From contig NZ_BCSV01000003.1 in the NCBI RefSeq assembly GCF_001571045.1, positions 62,001-126,000 of the forward strand: a stretch of 64,000 bases of DNA. The letters are read 5' to 3'. Positions within the stretch are counted from its first letter, which is position 1, and each line of letters begins with the position of its first letter. The notes under the pieces are model-generated. The model did not search any database. It had not been told where the DNA came from and worked only from the letters and a program-made list of their open reading frames with translations. The position numbers and the translations under genes are program-made. Positions 45,997-52,615 of this stretch are shown piece after piece. Source of the DNA: Curtobacterium ammoniigenes NBRC 101786. GTDB lineage: Bacteria > Actinomycetota > Actinomycetes > Actinomycetales > Microbacteriaceae.

Positions 45997-46010
45997 TGCA
46001 CGAACGTGCA
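45997..46010. promoter_or_regulatory. Operator-like palindrome, copy 1
   Basis: TGCACGAACGTGCA: TGCACG and CGTGCA arms around AA, a perfect palindrome apart from the two-base centre. It lies 127 bases before the glpF start. Confidence 0.6.
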
Positions 46011-46095
46011 CACGCGGCAATCTGCTGCGTTCGAATGCGCCGCAAGGGCATGCGGGGGCGGATGATCAAGGCTCGCGAAGCGCGGAGCGCCGTCG

Positions 46096-46109
46096 TGCAC
46101 AAACGTGCA
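46096..46109. promoter_or_regulatory. Operator-like palindrome, copy 2
   Basis: TGCACAAACGTGCA differs from copy 1 by one base (G to A). It lies 99 bases from copy 1, centre to centre, and 100 bases before the dhaK start. Two near-identical sites suggest one regulator, possibly looping DNA. Confidence 0.6.
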
Positions 46110-46208
46110 ACTAGTCCGCACGGGCATGGCGGTACATTGAGCGCAACCAGGCCGCGAGCGCCTCGAGTGGTGCGCCGGCCTCCGGATCACTGTGCGTGGA
46201 GGCATTCG

Positions 46209-47210
46209 ATGAAGAAGCTGATCAACGACCCGCAGCGCGTCGTCGACGACACCGTTCGAGGGTTCGCTCTGGCCCATGCGGACCGCGTCGTGCTCACGGA
46301 GTCTCCGATCCACCTTCGGCGGTCGGACGCTCCGGTTCCGGGCAAAGTCGGGATCGTCAGCGGGGGCGGCAGCGGACACGAGCCGCTCCACGCGGGATTC
46401 ATCGGGCACGGCATGCTCGACGCCGCTGTTCCGGGACCCGTCTTCACCTCGCCGACGCCGGACCCGATCGTGGAGGCGACGAAGGCGGTCGACGCTGGTG
46501 CGGGAGTCCTCCACATCGTGAAGAACTACACCGGCGACGTGCTCAACTTCGAGACCGCGGCGGAGCTCGCCGGGATGGACGGGATCCGGATCGAGTCGGT
46601 CGTTGTCGATGACGACGTCGCCGTTCAGGACTCGCTCTACACGGCGGGTCGTCGGGGTGTCGCTGGCACGGTTGTCGTCGAGAAGTGCGCTGGGGCTGCT
46701 GCCGAGCGCGGAGATGACCTTGACGCCGTCGCCGGCGTTGCTCGCCGGGTCAATGCGGTGACGCGGTCGATGGGTCTCGCGCTCGCTCCGTGCACGGTTC
46801 CGCACGCGGGGGAGCCCTCGTTCACGCTCGCTGAGGACGAGGTCGAGCTCGGTATTGGCATCCATGGCGAGCCGGGACGCGAGAAGATCGCCATGGCGCC
46901 GGCGGACCAGCTCACGGACCGGGTGATCGAGCCGATCCTCGCAGACCTTTCACCGTCCGAGGGTGCACGTGTCCTGCTCTTCGTGAACGGGATGGGGGGC
47001 ACGCCGCTGTCTGAGCTCTACATCGTGTACCGGCGCGCTGCCGAGGTCCTTGCGGAGCGTGGTCTCCAGGTCGCGCGTAGCCTGGTCGGGAACTACGTCA
47101 CCTCGCTGGAGATGCAGGGATTCTCGATCACGCTCTCGGTGTTGGATGACGATCTTCTTGCGCTATGGGATGCGCCGGTCGAGACGCCGGCGCTCCGGTG
47201 GGGTCGGTGA
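46209..47210 (+). CDS. dhaK: PTS-dependent dihydroxyacetone kinase, subunit DhaK
   Basis: A 333-residue substrate-binding subunit. Dihydroxyacetone is held covalently as a hemiaminal on His219 in [11 protein letters not shown], helped by His57 in [27 protein letters not shown] and the terminal [16 protein letters not shown] are conserved. The ATG at 46209 has GTGGAGG nine bases upstream. DhaK works with DhaL, which carries ADP/ATP, and DhaM, which takes phosphate from the PTS. All three are in order here. Confidence 0.95.
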
Positions 47211-47267
47211 GATCACAGCGTTCCGGGACTCGGCAAGGACCGGGATCCGACGAGGAGAGGAAAGCAG

Positions 47268-47915
47268 GTGGGAATGCTTGACACGGCGTGGGCGGTCCGA
47301 TGGGTCCGCGCGACGGCGGCGACTGTGGCAGAACATCGCGCCGAGTTGGTGACGCTCGACCGCGAAATCGGTGACGGCGATCACGGTGAGAATCTCGACC
47401 GAGGGTTCCGCGCCGTTGTCGAGTCAGTGGACGCAGACGAGGATTCCCTCACGACTCCGGCCGACGTGCTGAAGCTCGTCGCGACGAAGCTCATCTCCAC
47501 GGTCGGCGGTGCGTCCGGTCCGCTGTTCGGGACTGCGTACCTGAAGGCGTCGCAGGCTGTCGGCGGCCGGGATGCGCTCGATCCGGAGGCTGTGGTCGCG
47601 TTGCTCGCGGCGGCGCGGGACGGCATTGTCATGCGCGGGAAGGCGCAGCCAGGCGACAAGACAATGGTCGATGCGTGGACACCGGCGGTCGACGCCGCGG
47701 GGGAGGCGTCCGCTGCTGGGGCTTCCGTGGTGGCGGTACTGGAGGCGGCGGCGTCTGCCGCGCAGGCGGGTGCTGAGGCGACCGATCCGCTTGTCGCGCA
47801 TAAGGGGCGGGCGAGCTATCTCGGGGAGCGTGCGATCGGACACCGCGATCCCGGCGCGCAGTCGACCGCGTACATTCTTCGAGCCGCTGCGGATGCTGCA
47901 GCTGATGCAGCGTGA
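47268..47915 (+). CDS. dhaL: Dihydroxyacetone kinase subunit DhaL
   Basis: A 215-residue helical-barrel subunit carrying a tightly bound nucleotide. The magnesium-binding Asp residues are in LDREIGDGDHGENLDRGF (31, 36, 38). STVGGASGPLFG, QPGDKTMVDAW and the end signature RASYLGERAIGHRDPGA follow. The GTG at 47268 is used; an ATG two codons later is equally plausible, with AGGAAAG upstream of both. The gap to dhaK is 57 bases; dhaM overlaps by GTGA. Confidence 0.94.
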   Translation: MGMLDTAWAVRWVRATAATVAEHRAELVTLDREIGDGDHGENLDRGFRAVVESVDADEDSLTTPADVLKLVATKLISTVGGASGPLFGTAYLKASQAVGGRDALDPEAVVALLAAARDGIVMRGKAQPGDKTMVDAWTPAVDAAGEASAAGASVVAVLEAAASAAQAGAEATDPLVAHKGRASYLGERAIGHRDPGAQSTAYILRAAADAAADAA

Positions 47916-48646
47916 GCGTCGCGATCCTCGTCGTGTCGCACAGTGCGGAGCTCGGCGCGGGCGTCGCTGCGCTGGCTGGACAGATGGCACCGGACGTCTC
48001 GATTGCGGTTGCCGCGGGGACGGACGACGGCGGCATCGGGACCTCGTTCGACCGGATCAGTCAGGGGTTCGAGTCCCTTCGCGACAGCGAAGGAGTGGTG
48101 GTGGTGTGCGATCTCGGATCGGCGTACCTCACGGTCGATACCGTCCTTGAGTTTCTCGACGATGAATTCCGCTCCCGTGTCGTGGTTTCGGATGCGCCTC
48201 TGGTTGAGGGTGCTGTCGCCGCGAGCGTTGCGGCGCAGGCCGGTGGAAGCCTGCGGTCCGTGGTCGCGGCAGCGGCGACTGCATGGACGCGGCCGAGCGA
48301 TGCGCCCGATCTCCCGCGCCGGCCAGACGCGACGCCTTCGGGGAACGAGGATTCGCAGGGCTCACGAGCGGCGGACACATCACAGCATGGGCACGCGCGG
48401 GCCTCTGCGGAGCTGGTGAACCCTTCTGGGCTGCACGCGCGGCCGGCTGCAGAGTTCGTGAGGACGGCAGCTCGATTCGAGGCGGTTGTTCGGGTGAACG
48501 GTGTCGATGCCAAGAGTCTCCTGGCGATCATGGCGTTGGCATTACCGCAGGGGAGTTCTGTCGAGATCGAGGCAACCGGTGTCGATGCTCGGGCGGCCGT
48601 TGATGCCTTGACGGATCTCGTGCGATCCGGGTTCGGAGAAGCCTGA
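47912..48646 (+). CDS. dhaM: Dihydroxyacetone kinase phosphotransfer subunit DhaM, EIIA-HPr fusion
   Basis: A 244-residue fusion. Residues 1-125 are the mannose-type EIIA domain with phospho-His10 in LVVSHSAELG. After a 40-residue Asp/Ser/Pro linker, residues 165-244 are an HPr domain with His175 in NPSGLHARPAAEFV and the Ser46-equivalent in DAKSLLAIM. E. coli DhaM adds an enzyme I fragment, which is absent here, so phosphate must come from a separate enzyme I. The GTG overlaps dhaL (GTGA). Confidence 0.93.
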   Translation: MSVAILVVSHSAELGAGVAALAGQMAPDVSIAVAAGTDDGGIGTSFDRISQGFESLRDSEGVVVVCDLGSAYLTVDTVLEFLDDEFRSRVVVSDAPLVEGAVAASVAAQAGGSLRSVVAAAATAWTRPSDAPDLPRRPDATPSGNEDSQGSRAADTSQHGHARASAELVNPSGLHARPAAEFVRTAARFEAVVRVNGVDAKSLLAIMALALPQGSSVEIEATGVDARAAVDALTDLVRSGFGEA

Positions 48647-48658
48647 TCGCGCGGTGAC

Positions 48659-50038
48659 TCAGCGTTTCGAGGGAAGCGTTGGGCGCTCGGGGAGCGGTGC
48701 GTTCGGCTTTGTCGAGACGGTGACAAAACTCGCGGTGCCCGCGGCGAAAATGGCGGTGGTGCGGGCGTTTCGTGCTGGTTCGACTCGGTAGGGCTTGATC
48801 GCCCTGGTATCGGGAGCCTGGTCGCTGAGTTGCGATTCGCCGTTGTTTCCCCAGACGTAGAGTGCGCCGGATTCTCCGATCGCCATATCGTGCTCGCTGC
48901 CGGCGCTGATCTGCAAGATCGGCTCCGGAAGGAGGTCGACGTGTTGCGGGGCGGCTCGCTGTTGCGTGTCGACGTTGTCCGTGGGTTCGAGATCGATCCC
49001 GAGTTGTCCTTCGACGTTGCGGCCCCAGGTGAAGATCGACCCGTCGGTCATGAGCGCCATGGCGTTCAGCGTTCCCACTCGGAGATCGACGACGTTGCTG
49101 AGCACTGGTCGCGGAGTGGGGTATTGAACGTTCGGGACCTTCCTTGCGAGGATGCCTGACTGGTCTTGTCCCCAGGTCCAAACGGTGCCATCGGTGAGGA
49201 GGACCAGGTTCGATCGGCGCGGCTCCGCGCCCTCGTCGACTCGGTGGGTGATCCCGGCGGAGCTGAGGATCGGTGTTCCGCCGAAGTCGTATGCGGTGAC
49301 CGGTACGGCGGTTGGCACGGGTTCGGGGAGGCCGGTCTGCGTGTAGTCGGCGCGAAGAGCGTTTGACTCTCCGAAGCCCCACAGCGTGCCGTCGGCGGTC
49401 TCGAGGAGCACACTGTCGGCGAGCGGAAACATATTGATGATCCGCCCGACATGATCGGTGCGCGCGTCGTGCGGGGTACGGATGTCGTCGGTGGCGTCGC
49501 CCTGCCCGAGTTGTCCCCAAAAGTTTTGCCCCCAGGAGACGATGCGACCGGAAGCGGTTCGCGCGTATGCGGCGTGGGTCGTGAGCCCGATTTCCATAAT
49601 CGGGCTCGTTGCTGCTGCTGTTCCAGTGAAGTCGATCCGCTGGGGCTCGTTCACCATCTCGGTCGTGCCGTCACCGATCAGGCCGCTCTCGTTGGATCCC
49701 CACGCCCACACGACGTTCTGCGTCGTGAGGACGATGTGCGTCTGGTCGGTGTCGATTCGTTGTCGGACAGTGATTCCTGCGAGTGGATGGTCGTCGCCGT
49801 ATGGCAGGTGGACGAACTCGGTCGCGACCGCGGAGCTATAGTCCGTCGCGAAGTTGCCCGCGGACTGTCCAACGGCAAGGGAGAAGTACCGGCCGTCGGA
49901 GAGACCAACCCGGTTGTCGAAGATGATGGAGTCGTTCGTGTGGAGTGCGTTCGCCGGAGCGGCAACGGTCAGCGTTGCTATCAGGGAAGCGATCGCACCG
50001 CCGATTGCGGTAAGGCGCACGGGGCGGCTGTGTTTCAC
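48659..50038 (-). CDS. Secreted RCC1-repeat (beta-propeller) protein
   Basis: A 459-residue exported protein. The signal peptide is residues 1-31 (LTAIGGAIASLIATLTVAAPANA). Then come six or more RCC1-like blades marked by VWAWGSNESG, IVSWGQNFWGQLGQG, LWGFGESN, VWTWGQDQSG, IFTWGRNVEGQLG and LYVWGNNGES. RCC1 propellers are protein-binding surfaces. No catalytic motif or cell-wall anchor is present, so it is probably released or held by partners. The GTG start has GGAGGAAT four bases upstream and overlaps the upstream gene (GTGA). It is the last gene of the SipW locus. Confidence 0.88.
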   Translation of the reverse strand: MKHSRPVRLTAIGGAIASLIATLTVAAPANALHTNDSIIFDNRVGLSDGRYFSLAVGQSAGNFATDYSSAVATEFVHLPYGDDHPLAGITVRQRIDTDQTHIVLTTQNVVWAWGSNESGLIGDGTTEMVNEPQRIDFTGTAAATSPIMEIGLTTHAAYARTASGRIVSWGQNFWGQLGQGDATDDIRTPHDARTDHVGRIINMFPLADSVLLETADGTLWGFGESNALRADYTQTGLPEPVPTAVPVTAYDFGGTPILSSAGITHRVDEGAEPRRSNLVLLTDGTVWTWGQDQSGILARKVPNVQYPTPRPVLSNVVDLRVGTLNAMALMTDGSIFTWGRNVEGQLGIDLEPTDNVDTQQRAAPQHVDLLPEPILQISAGSEHDMAIGESGALYVWGNNGESQLSDQAPDTRAIKPYRVEPARNARTTAIFAAGTASFVTVSTKPNAPLPERPTLPSKR

Positions 50039-50721
50039 AGAGATTCCTCCAGACGTTGCGATGCGGAACGCCGGGCAGTGGGGTGAAGCGCGACCCCTGT
50101 CGCGGCTGCGGATATCGCGAGAAGGATCAGCGTTCCAAGGTCGACGCCGGTGATTGCCAGGCGGTCCGGGAGTTCCGTCGCGTCGAACCGGAGGTGCGCC
50201 GTGGTTGTCGAGGCAGGCATGTCGGCTGCGTTGATCTGCAGGGACGCGGCGAGGCACACGTCTGCGGTGGTTCCGGGGCTGACGGCGCGGTGAGGAATCG
50301 GCGCGCCGCCGACTACGGGTTCCTGACGGTCTCCAGTGGTGAAGGATTGGGCGCCGCACTCCTTCGTGTCTGCCACCGCAAGTGTCAGCTTCTCCGCTGC
50401 TGGACGGTGACCTGAGATCCGCGCGACCTCCGCTCGCACACTGACTTCGACATCGCGCGAGCCGCGATTCTCAAGTCGGGCAGACCGATAGGCGGTTTCA
50501 CCGGGCGCGAGGACGACATCGAAGAGCGCCGAACCCGGTGTCACTCGAAGCGGGGTGTCGGACTCGCGCATGCTCGCTCGAGCGTCTGGATGGGCAGAGC
50601 TGATCGACGACCCGTCGCCCCGCGTTCGCTCGGCGCCAACCGCGCCGAGCTGCCCCGCGAAGGCAGCAGCGAAAGCAGTGGCCGCGATGCTCCACGCAAT
50701 GCATTGAAGTGAGCGCGTCAT
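50035..50721 (-). CDS. Exported membrane-anchored protein of the SipW locus
   Basis: A 228-residue protein I do not recognise. It has an N-terminal signal sequence (8-30, ending GAVGA) and an extracellular domain (60-185). That domain contains LAPGETAYRSARLENRGSR, a pattern of immunoglobulin-like DUF11/CARDB-type beta sandwiches, and two Cys (122, 156) that may pair. A C-terminal membrane helix (about 193-212) is followed by a short Arg/Ser tail. It overlaps sipW by ATGA and the RCC1 gene by GTGA, so these three are strictly co-expressed. A structural or anchoring role beside the camelysin-like protein is inference. Confidence 0.75.
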   Translation of the reverse strand: MTRSLQCIAWSIAATAFAAAFAGQLGAVGAERTRGDGSSISSAHPDARASMRESDTPLRVTPGSALFDVVLAPGETAYRSARLENRGSRDVEVSVRAEVARISGHRPAAEKLTLAVADTKECGAQSFTTGDRQEPVVGGAPIPHRAVSPGTTADVCLAASLQINAADMPASTTTAHLRFDATELPDRLAITGVDLGTLILLAISAAATGVALHPTARRSASQRLEESL

Positions 50722-51230
50722 GAGGGGCGTGGTTCTCCTGGTCTTGCGGCACGAGGCCGGCGTCGCGCGGGCACGATGAACGCGGGTACTGCGATGGCAG
50801 CGGTGATGATCCGCCCGCCCCAGCTCTGCAGGAATCGGAAGATGTCCGCGGAAGTCCCCGTGAGTGCAATGCGAGGAGCACCGAGGACCAACGACGACGT
50901 CACTTCAATTGGGTCGGGCGCCGTGTTGTTGTCGCCCTTGAGTACTGCTCCATCGGGCGTGGGCTGATGCACGCGGTGCACGTATTGTTGCGTTCGATCG
51001 CCCGCCGATTTCGTCACGACCACGATTTGGCCTTTGCGCGTGAGTTCAGATCCGTCGGGGGACCGAATGAGGAGGACATCGCCGACCAGGTAGGTCGGGA
51101 CCATCGAAGATCCGGTCACTGTCATGTAGGAGTCACCGCTCGCAACTTGCCAGGCGAGCGGGGCTACAAGCGCGACGAGAAGCGCCGCACCGGTGACGCG
51201 CCAGAGGGTGATCAGCAAGTCGATCATCAT
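50718..51230 (-). CDS. Signal peptidase I, SipW (ER-type Ser/His)
   Basis: A 170-residue membrane peptidase with an N-terminal helix (about 5-29), catalytic Ser42 in TVTGSSMVPTYLVGD, and His85 in YVHRVHQ in place of the usual Lys. That Ser/His pair defines the SipW/ER type. LKGDNNTAPDP is the conserved box E, and a C-terminal helix lies near 140-160. SipW processes TasA and camelysin-type precursors. The ATG at 51230 is chosen because a GTG at 51275 would lie inside a strong hairpin. The neighbour upstream is the likely substrate. Confidence 0.9.
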   Translation of the reverse strand: MMIDLLITLWRVTGAALLVALVAPLAWQVASGDSYMTVTGSSMVPTYLVGDVLLIRSPDGSELTRKGQIVVVTKSAGDRTQQYVHRVHQPTPDGAVLKGDNNTAPDPIEVTSSLVLGAPRIALTGTSADIFRFLQSWGGRIITAAIAVPAFIVPARRRPRAARPGEPRPS

Positions 51231-51242
51231 TCGTTGAATCCG

Positions 51243-51277
51243 GGGTGGCGGGGGAGCGATGCCCTCCCCCGCCACCC
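51243..51277 (-). terminator. Perfect 14-bp hairpin between the camelysin-like gene and sipW
   Basis: GGGTGGCGGGGGAG (51243-51256) and CTCCCCCGCCACCC (51264-51277) with a seven-base loop. It begins 18 bases after the camelysin-like stop and ends 12 bases before the sipW ATG. It may terminate partially so that the secreted protein is made in excess over its peptidase, or protect the 3' end of the mRNA. Confidence 0.7.
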
Positions 51278-51295
51278 ATCAGGCTGGTTGCGGTA

Positions 51296-51841
51296 TCAGG
51301 CCTTGACTGCGTCGAACTGGAAGTCGAGCATTGCCTTGAGATCGCGGTCGGCAAACTGCGGGAACGCGGAAGCGTCCTTCACGAACACTTCGACCTTTGC
51401 CGTCTTGGTGGCGCCGGCATCGACGGTGATGCTCGAGGGGAGCGACATCTTGTCGAGCTTGCCGGTCTCGTACCGACGGCCATCGATCGTGACGGCGGTG
51501 TCGAGCGCTCCCATGAGGGCATCGCGGTACGCGTCGTTGCCCGGCTGCTTTTTGGTGGACACGTTGACGGTGAGCGCGTCTTCAGTTCCCTCATTTCGGA
51601 GCGTGTAGTAGTCGTACACGGTTTCGCCGTTCACACCGCCGTCGAAGTCGTAGACGATCGGGTCGCCGGTCACGACGAGGCGTGAGTCGGTGTCGGAGGA
51701 CTCGGGTGTGGTGCCGAACACGTTGTCGAAGATCGTGCTCTGCGAGGTGATCAACGCACCACCGGTTGCGAGGCCTCCGACGAGGACGGTTGCGATGCCG
51801 CCGGCGATGAGCGCGCGCTTTCGCGTGGTGTTCAGAGTCAT
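51296..51841 (-). CDS. Camelysin/TasA-like secreted protein (SipW-type signal peptide)
   Basis: A 181-residue exported protein. The N-terminus NTTRKRALIAGGIATVLVG, then GGALITSQSTIFDN, is the alternate signal peptide seen in SipW substrates. The mature part (about 40-181) has VNGETVYDYYTLRNEGTEDA and TVDAGATKTAKVEVFVKD, the beta-sandwich pattern of TasA/CalY/camelysin proteins. It has no Cys, and the C-terminus is FQFDAVKA. The ATG at 51841 has AGGAAG upstream. TasA relatives form extracellular fibres in Bacillus; camelysin is a surface metalloprotease. No HExxH is present, so a fibre or surface-layer role is more likely. Confidence 0.8.
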   Translation of the reverse strand: MTLNTTRKRALIAGGIATVLVGGLATGGALITSQSTIFDNVFGTTPESSDTDSRLVVTGDPIVYDFDGGVNGETVYDYYTLRNEGTEDALTVNVSTKKQPGNDAYRDALMGALDTAVTIDGRRYETGKLDKMSLPSSITVDAGATKTAKVEVFVKDASAFPQFADRDLKAMLDFQFDAVKA

Positions 51842-51934: not shown

Positions 51935-52615
51935 TTAATCGTCGTCGAAGTCGACCTCTGCGCCGCGGAGCGCTCGGGCTGCCTTGATGATGAGCCGCAC
52001 TGCCGGGAGCGCAATGAGTGCTGCGAGGGCGAGGGCGACGACCGGGTCAAGCCAGAGCCACCGACCCGTGACGAGGATGATCCCGCCGGCGACCGCGACG
52101 CCTCCCGCCGCTGCTGCATCGGCGAGGGCATCCAGCAGCACGGAGCGCATGTGGAGGTCTTCACTCGCCGCGGACCGGCCCAAAATGAGCGCACTGCTCA
52201 GCATCACGACAACGGTGATGCAGGCCGCGAGGACCATCGGAAGGCCATGAATATCGGGGGAGCCGCGCATGAGGCGATTCGCCGACTCCCAGGCGACCGC
52301 AACTGTCACGCAGGCGAGGAGGGTTGCATTTACGAGCGCAGCGGCCGGGATCGCCTTGCGGGCCGATTCGGCAGTCGAGCGGTCGCGAATCCGAACGGCG
52401 ACGAGCCCGAGGAGAAGAGCCAGCGTGTCGGCGACGGCATCGCCAGCGGCGGCGAGTACGCCGACCGAGTGCGCCACCTGTCCGGCGATCGTGAGTCCGA
52501 CGATCAGACCGACATTCAGGAGGAGAACGGCGGTCAGGCGGCGGGCTTGCGTCGTCCGGAGGTGGGCAGCGGTCGGTGCATTGCTGTTGGACCGCGAGCT
52601 CGGGTGGTCTGCCAC
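51935..52615 (-). CDS. Cation diffusion facilitator family transporter lacking the C-terminal domain
   Basis: A 226-residue protein with six membrane helices. The TM2 metal site reads GDAVADT (Asp59 and Asp63, as in YiiP). The TM5 site is SVLLDALAD, where Asp162 is kept but the usual His is Ser158. The protein stops right after TM6 with an acidic VDFDDD, so the cytoplasmic metallochaperone-like domain of about 80 residues is missing. Such short CDF proteins exist in other bacteria. An AT-rich inverted repeat just upstream may be a metal-responsive operator. The metal cannot be predicted. Confidence 0.85.
   Translation of the reverse strand: MADHPSSRSNSNAPTAAHLRTTQARRLTAVLLLNVGLIVGLTIAGQVAHSVGVLAAAGDAVADTLALLLGLVAVRIRDRSTAESARKAIPAAALVNATLLACVTVAVAWESANRLMRGSPDIHGLPMVLAACITVVVMLSSALILGRSAASEDLHMRSVLLDALADAAAAGGVAVAGGIILVTGRWLWLDPVVALALAALIALPAVRLIIKAARALRGAEVDFDDD

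Follow-up and report, generated by a model that had tools for sequence, protein, structure and literature searches.

Gene content and layout of the locus

The window analysed here is a 64,000-nucleotide stretch of Curtobacterium ammoniigenes NBRC 101786 (contig NZ_BCSV01000003.1, positions 62,001 to 126,000; coordinates below are those of the window), a member of the Microbacteriaceae whose genome comprises 3.04 Mb in 13 contigs. TasA-type fibres have been studied mainly in Bacillus and in a few archaea, and an initial annotation of the window proposed a related surface-fibre or adhesion apparatus, encoded by four minus-strand genes forming one unit. All four open reading frames are present and confirmed on the minus strand at 48659–51841, and the unit has the following features.

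51296–51841, minus strand: candidate TasA-like major fibre subunit (open reading frame 1, ORF1), 181 amino acids, with a SipW-type N-terminus and a predicted beta-sandwich
51713–51754, minus strand: LITSQSTIFDNVFG, the ORF1 segment just past the hydrophobic core, in which cleavage is presumed to occur and which would provide the donor strand; the two Leucobacter homologues retain it, and the RCC1 protein shares it
51240–51282, minus strand: strong G+C hairpin lacking a U-tract, in the gap that separates the subunit gene from sipW (z = -4.0)
50718–51230, minus strand: SipW-type (archaeal/endoplasmic reticulum-type) signal peptidase, 170 amino acids, Ser42/His85/Asp100
50035–50721, minus strand: anchor protein, 228 amino acids, with an ordinary signal peptide, a predicted beta-sandwich and a conserved cysteine pair
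50146–50160, minus strand: LAITG, a class E sortase recognition motif (defined in PMC5148588), followed by a hydrophobic helix and a basic tail
48659–50038, minus strand: exported RCC1-repeat beta-propeller identified by profile matches, 459 amino acids, with no C-terminal anchor
49904–49945, minus strand: LHTNDSIIFDNRVG, near the N-terminus of the RCC1 protein, a copy of the corresponding TasA-like segment, presumed to hold the end of the SipW signal and the donor strand

The gene overlaps described earlier were confirmed as ATGA at 50718–50721 (sipW/anchor) and GTGA at 50035–50038 (anchor/RCC1). The TasA-like gene and sipW do not overlap; we replaced the previously assigned sipW start, GTG 51275, by ATG 51230 as the most likely one, and the gap between the two genes is therefore 65 bp.

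A SipW-type peptidase and a candidate subunit with a predicted TasA-type fold

The second gene product had been described as a Ser/His SipW peptidase, and it carries a Ser/His catalytic pair in place of Ser/Lys (Ser42 in TGSSMVPT and His85 in QYVHRVH), with both residues kept in the Leucobacter relatives. It narrowly passes the model for archaeal/SipW-type signal peptidase I (TIGR02228, 52.6 bits against a cut-off of 51.85) and falls well below that for the Bacillus SipW equivalog (NF046067, 18.4 bits against 190); it is a SipW-type enzyme distinct from Bacillus SipW itself. The genome holds two TIGR02228 matches in all and no other close match to the peptidase.

ORF1 matched no family in NCBIfam or Pfam, including the camelysin/TasA models PF12389, NF046066 and TIGR04088–04090, and a sequence search of the PDB returned chance-level matches only. 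Some of these family models are reached in related loci, where TIGR04089 and TIGR04088 both recognise the TasA-like protein of L104, and TIGR04088 also that of L092. Homologues of ORF1 were found only in two Leucobacter loci (43 and 38% identity), and clear matches among 400 genomes of the family were confined to the window's genome and Leucobacter chinensis (G175).

An AlphaFold2 model of ORF1, built from three sequences and confident only for residues 52–181, was compared with 350,542 PDB chains. The TasA fibre 8aur ranked first (E = 1.2e-4), the TasA-like bundling pilus of Pyrobaculum (7ueg) second and the cannula protein CanA fourth. The model thus resembles the TasA beta-sandwich moderately well, with template modelling (TM) scores of 0.38–0.46 and a predicted local distance difference test (pLDDT) of mostly 70–90 in the core. 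The initial label 'camelysin/TasA-like' therefore holds for the predicted fold and fails for sequence families; its author had named a missing TasA/CalY fold as the outcome that would overturn the proposal, and the leading match to 8aur, at moderate confidence, points the other way. We conclude with moderate confidence that ORF1 is, by predicted fold, a candidate TasA-type fibre subunit. Camelysin metalloprotease activity was also considered for ORF1 and found unsupported, as no protease family was matched.

An anchor protein with a class E sorting signal

The third protein had been credited with a C-terminal membrane helix. The helix is there, but it is not a plain membrane anchor: with LAITG (residues 188–192 of 228) before it and the basic tail after it, it forms a sortase sorting signal. 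Actinobacterial class E sortases recognise LAxTG (PMC5148588), and the protein has the full set of class E substrate features (LAxTG, helix, basic tail and N-terminal signal). Both sortases of the genome are class E enzymes (NF033747, 217 and 198 bits against a cut-off of 160), and one sortase gene adjoins a gene for a small LAFTG protein (L047:7795-9495). In the L. chinensis homologue of the anchor the motif is LPPTG, and in its G069 and G085 counterparts it is LALTG; the cysteine pair is kept across the three anchor homologues. The core of the anchor model is a predicted beta-sandwich, with 7ueg first and 8aur second among its PDB matches. The sequence features support the prediction that the anchor is sortase-linked to the wall, and its sorting signal, the two class E sortases and its TasA-type predicted fold favour the proposed role of this protein as a base.

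The RCC1 protein shares its N-terminus with the subunit

The last gene, the only RCC1 gene in the genome, was correctly described as encoding an exported RCC1-repeat protein, scoring above the cut-offs of PF25390 (156.6 against 150) and PF00415 (122.1 against 21.7). Its segment LHTNDSIIFDNRVG, like LITSQSTIFDNVFG of the TasA-like protein, comes directly after a hydrophobic core. Across eight loci, the N-termini of RCC1 and TasA-like proteins were more alike when both came from one locus (mean score 44) than when they came from different loci (mean score 25). With the segment chosen automatically, the sum for own-locus pairing was reached by 3 of 40,320 permutations, a figure that overstates independence because some loci are kin (the window with the two Leucobacter loci, and G069 with G085). 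In a five-locus subset without the nearest relatives, the observed pairing was the best of 120. Anchor proteins used as controls gave no such signal, with 78 and 38 of 120 permutations doing as well. In the window, the match persists in the mature part of the proteins (29 of 20,000 shuffles). When 261 putative exported or membrane N-termini from the loci were compared with that of ORF1, the best matches were two TasA-like proteins, one of them a homologue, and the RCC1 proteins of L. chinensis and the window.

These N-termini invite comparison with the fibres of Bacillus, in which every subunit is completed by the N-terminal strand of its neighbour and assembly is started by TapA, a protein with an N-terminus similar to this strand (PMC9674648, PMC10151520). 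The RCC1 protein shares with TapA an N-terminus like the donor strand of the subunit, and has an RCC1 propeller where TapA has an immunoglobulin-like fold; it is TapA-like in role at most. The suggestion that it serves as a cap or ligand-binder would thereby gain a concrete candidate mechanism in the TasA-like N-terminal strand.

Among the Microbacteriaceae loci sampled, a C-terminal membrane segment was present in one of nine RCC1 proteins linked to sipW and in 14 of the 24 that are not (Fisher p = 0.02). RCC1 surface proteins encoded apart from sipW (L084-L101, e.g. L096, L086, L091, and L097) represent a second architecture, with ordinary signals and often LAxTG or LPxTG ends, and resemble the wall-anchored RCC1 proteins of Bifidobacterium (PMC4449606).

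Recurrence of the gene set in the Microbacteriaceae

SipW-type and RCC1 members were collected by profile searches, a regular-expression scan having missed most of them. The exact order TasA-like gene, sipW, anchor, RCC1 occurs in L. chinensis, followed there by a second RCC1 gene (L037:13238-15490) whose product combines an ordinary signal with a stretch of Asp/Gly-rich repeats and a helix at the C-terminus. G069 has the same order with another, family-recognised TasA-like protein (TIGR04089) and a second TasA-like gene ahead of sipW. Variants of the layout include Leucobacter sp. G161, in which the anchor and RCC1 genes are separated by a LuxR-type regulator, and G085, with TasA-like genes ahead of sipW and one more between anchor and RCC1. 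G177 and G204 contain the TasA-like protein, peptidase and RCC1 protein with no clear anchor or in another order. In the G085 locus as a whole (L100:5758-14496), sipW is surrounded by several TasA-like genes, the anchor has LALTG, and the unit stands between two RCC1 genes of the SipW type. Three genomes have large regulators of the LuxR type, with a helix-turn-helix at the C-terminus, beside their sipW/RCC1 loci (L125:8270-10822, L038:13577-15943, and L092:2999-5323); the window unit has none.

A SipW-type gene lay within the same ∼16-kb stretch in 6 of the 33 other RCC1 loci sampled in the family, against 0.63 expected if genes were placed at random (Poisson P = 5e-5). Excluding two loci first reached through sipW left 4 against 0.61 expected (P = 0.004). 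The expectation that the four-gene order would be found across the family is thus borne out in Leucobacter and two other genera and fails within the genus itself, as the order is absent from 66 congeners. Conservation of the set throughout Curtobacterium was accordingly rejected, ORF1 not being found in the congeners.

Hairpins behind the subunit gene

In five loci, the gap directly 3' of a TasA-like gene holds a strong G+C hairpin; the sequences are unrelated, and the gaps as a whole fold with energies of -37 to -55 kcal/mol (z-scores of -2.8 to -5.3). Beyond the hairpin of the window, counterparts in the same position are found at:

L037:9180-9303
L125:6835-6937
L104:5307-5399
L092:6176-6300

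A search of Rfam found no known RNA family for the intergenic hairpin. It is plausible that it acts as a partial terminator or processing site favouring the major subunit.

A proposed fibre with an anchored base and an RCC1 tip

We read the locus as a probable biogenesis set for a cell-wall-anchored TasA-type surface fibre, whose components and their linkage are well supported: the predicted TasA-type fold, the confirmed SipW type and the gene order kept in relatives all favour the surface-fibre reading of the initial annotation. In the assembly that we propose, the peptidase would process the TasA-like subunit and probably also the RCC1 protein. Joining would proceed by donor-strand exchange, the freed N-terminal strand of one subunit inserting into the next, so that the TasA-like protein, as both donor and acceptor, would form the shaft. 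Because it is a predicted sandwich, has no matching donor N-terminus and would be fixed to the wall, the anchor could accept the last donor strand and serve as an acceptor-only base, linked to peptidoglycan by a class E sortase through LAITG. The RCC1 protein, having a donor strand and neither sandwich nor anchor, could only donate, at the other end; it would be a tip or starter akin to TapA, presenting a ligand-binding propeller through which the fibre might adhere. Through the hairpin that follows its gene, the TasA-like subunit would be kept in excess. The model would assign each gene one place and give the fibre a built-in polarity.

We give the whole reading (a wall-anchored TasA-type fibre with donor-strand assembly, the anchor as base and the RCC1 protein as tip or starter) a probability of about 0.5. 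A rather more tentative proposal, for which we put the odds somewhat short of even, is that the locus encodes a polar Gram-positive donor-strand fibre: its base, fixed to peptidoglycan by a class E sortase, would only accept a strand, its shaft would be TasA-like, and its tip would be an RCC1 propeller that bears a grafted TasA-type strand and can only donate it.

Several observations weigh against this interpretation. The AlphaFold models of ORF1 and the anchor rest on three sequences each, with a mean pLDDT of 63–64 (cores mostly 70–90) and modest TM-scores of 0.3–0.46, and the N-terminal strand lies outside the modelled part; a profile comparison of ORF1 with the anchor found no sequence relationship between them. 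The locus is rare, with ORF1 in 1 of 67 genomes of the genus, and the anchor of Leucobacter sp. G161 carries a degenerate, non-canonical LETSG. A plain AxA-type site (APANA), also present in the RCC1 protein, could be cleaved by an ordinary signal peptidase, and the shared N-terminus could be a mere SipW recognition site. This last point underlies the main alternative, in which fibre and anchor are as proposed while the RCC1 protein is merely a co-secreted SipW substrate outside the fibre, such as a free adhesin, inhibitor or binding protein. SipW substrates necessarily share residues around the cleavage site, and free secreted binders with an RCC1 fold exist, for example beta-lactamase inhibitor protein II (cited in PMC3447821). 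However, the similarity runs on into the mature chain, and it goes with a missing C-terminal anchor while the gene stays beside that for the anchor protein; we regard this explanation as possible though doubtful.

The same thin alignments behind the predicted folds, together with the failure to reach the camelysin/TasA family models, would also suit an arrangement with no fibre at all, in which ORF1 and the anchor would be wall-associated proteins, either monomeric or short, with SipW serving only as their private signal peptidase. Donor-strand fibres nevertheless lead the PDB matches of both models, and the hairpin 3' of ORF1 points to abundant production of the subunit, making such an arrangement unlikely. 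Most improbable is a chance neighbourhood of an RCC1 surface protein downstream of an unrelated SipW locus: although SipW and RCC1 loci of the family are mostly separate, this is already contradicted by the recurrent gene order in other genera (at least four genera in all), and the overlapping start and stop codons, the enrichment and the matched N-termini argue in the same direction.

Comparison with known systems

The proposed fibre would resemble Bacillus subtilis tapA-sipW-tasA, a unit whose product TasA is a biofilm fibre, in its SipW-type peptidase, the TasA-type predicted fold of its subunit, the overlapping genes around sipW and a minor partner whose N-terminus resembles the subunit donor strand. 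It differs in lacking a TasA sequence-family match, in having an RCC1 propeller instead of TapA and a base protein with a sortase signal, and in gene order. Bacillus cereus sipW-calY/tasA with CapP likewise has SipW-processed camelysin-type filament subunits and an accessory protein at the wall, but is reported to be sortase-independent (PMC13082335) and has no RCC1 protein. Clostridium perfringens sipW-bsaABCRSD yields a SipW-dependent polymer that forms a pellicle, but its neighbouring sortase gene is dispensable, BsaA has no sorting motif (PMC7395162), and RCC1 is again missing; SipW fibre systems studied so far are in general described as sortase-independent (PMC13082335, PMC7395162). Archaeal bundling pili and CanA cannulae rank high among the structural matches to ORF1, the pili also among those to the anchor, but no sortase or propeller is known from these archaeal structures.

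The anchored and RCC1 proteins had been considered foreign to known systems. In the open-access literature we found no paper with both SipW and RCC1, in keeping with that view; RCC1 proteins anchored to the wall have, however, been described from Bifidobacterium (PMC4449606, PMC3447821). These proteins are likewise secreted, wall-displayed propellers in Actinomycetota, but they bear their own LPxTG anchor (PMC4449606), while the RCC1 protein of the window has none and has a SipW-like N-terminus. Relative to the Bacillus kit, the new elements would be a sortase-attached base and a secreted RCC1 protein imitating the subunit N-terminus, which could plug into the fibre. If this is correct, two surface-assembly routes, SipW/TasA and sortase, would be joined in one compact system with base, shaft and tip each nameable from sequence, and secreted bacterial RCC1 propellers at the cell surface would gain a proposed role. 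Matched N-termini inside one locus may also provide a candidate sequence rule for finding fibre partners elsewhere.

Flanking genes

A search for a sigma-70 promoter ahead of the locus found none. Upstream, 51935–52615 (minus strand) encodes a membrane protein resembling a cation efflux transporter, with a clear homologue in 1 of 66 congeners. Downstream, at 46000–48646 (plus strand), are dihydroxyacetone kinase-like genes of the phosphotransferase-system type, read from their translations, the last of them fused to an HPr-like domain; as these genes are convergent, the unit ends with the RCC1 gene.

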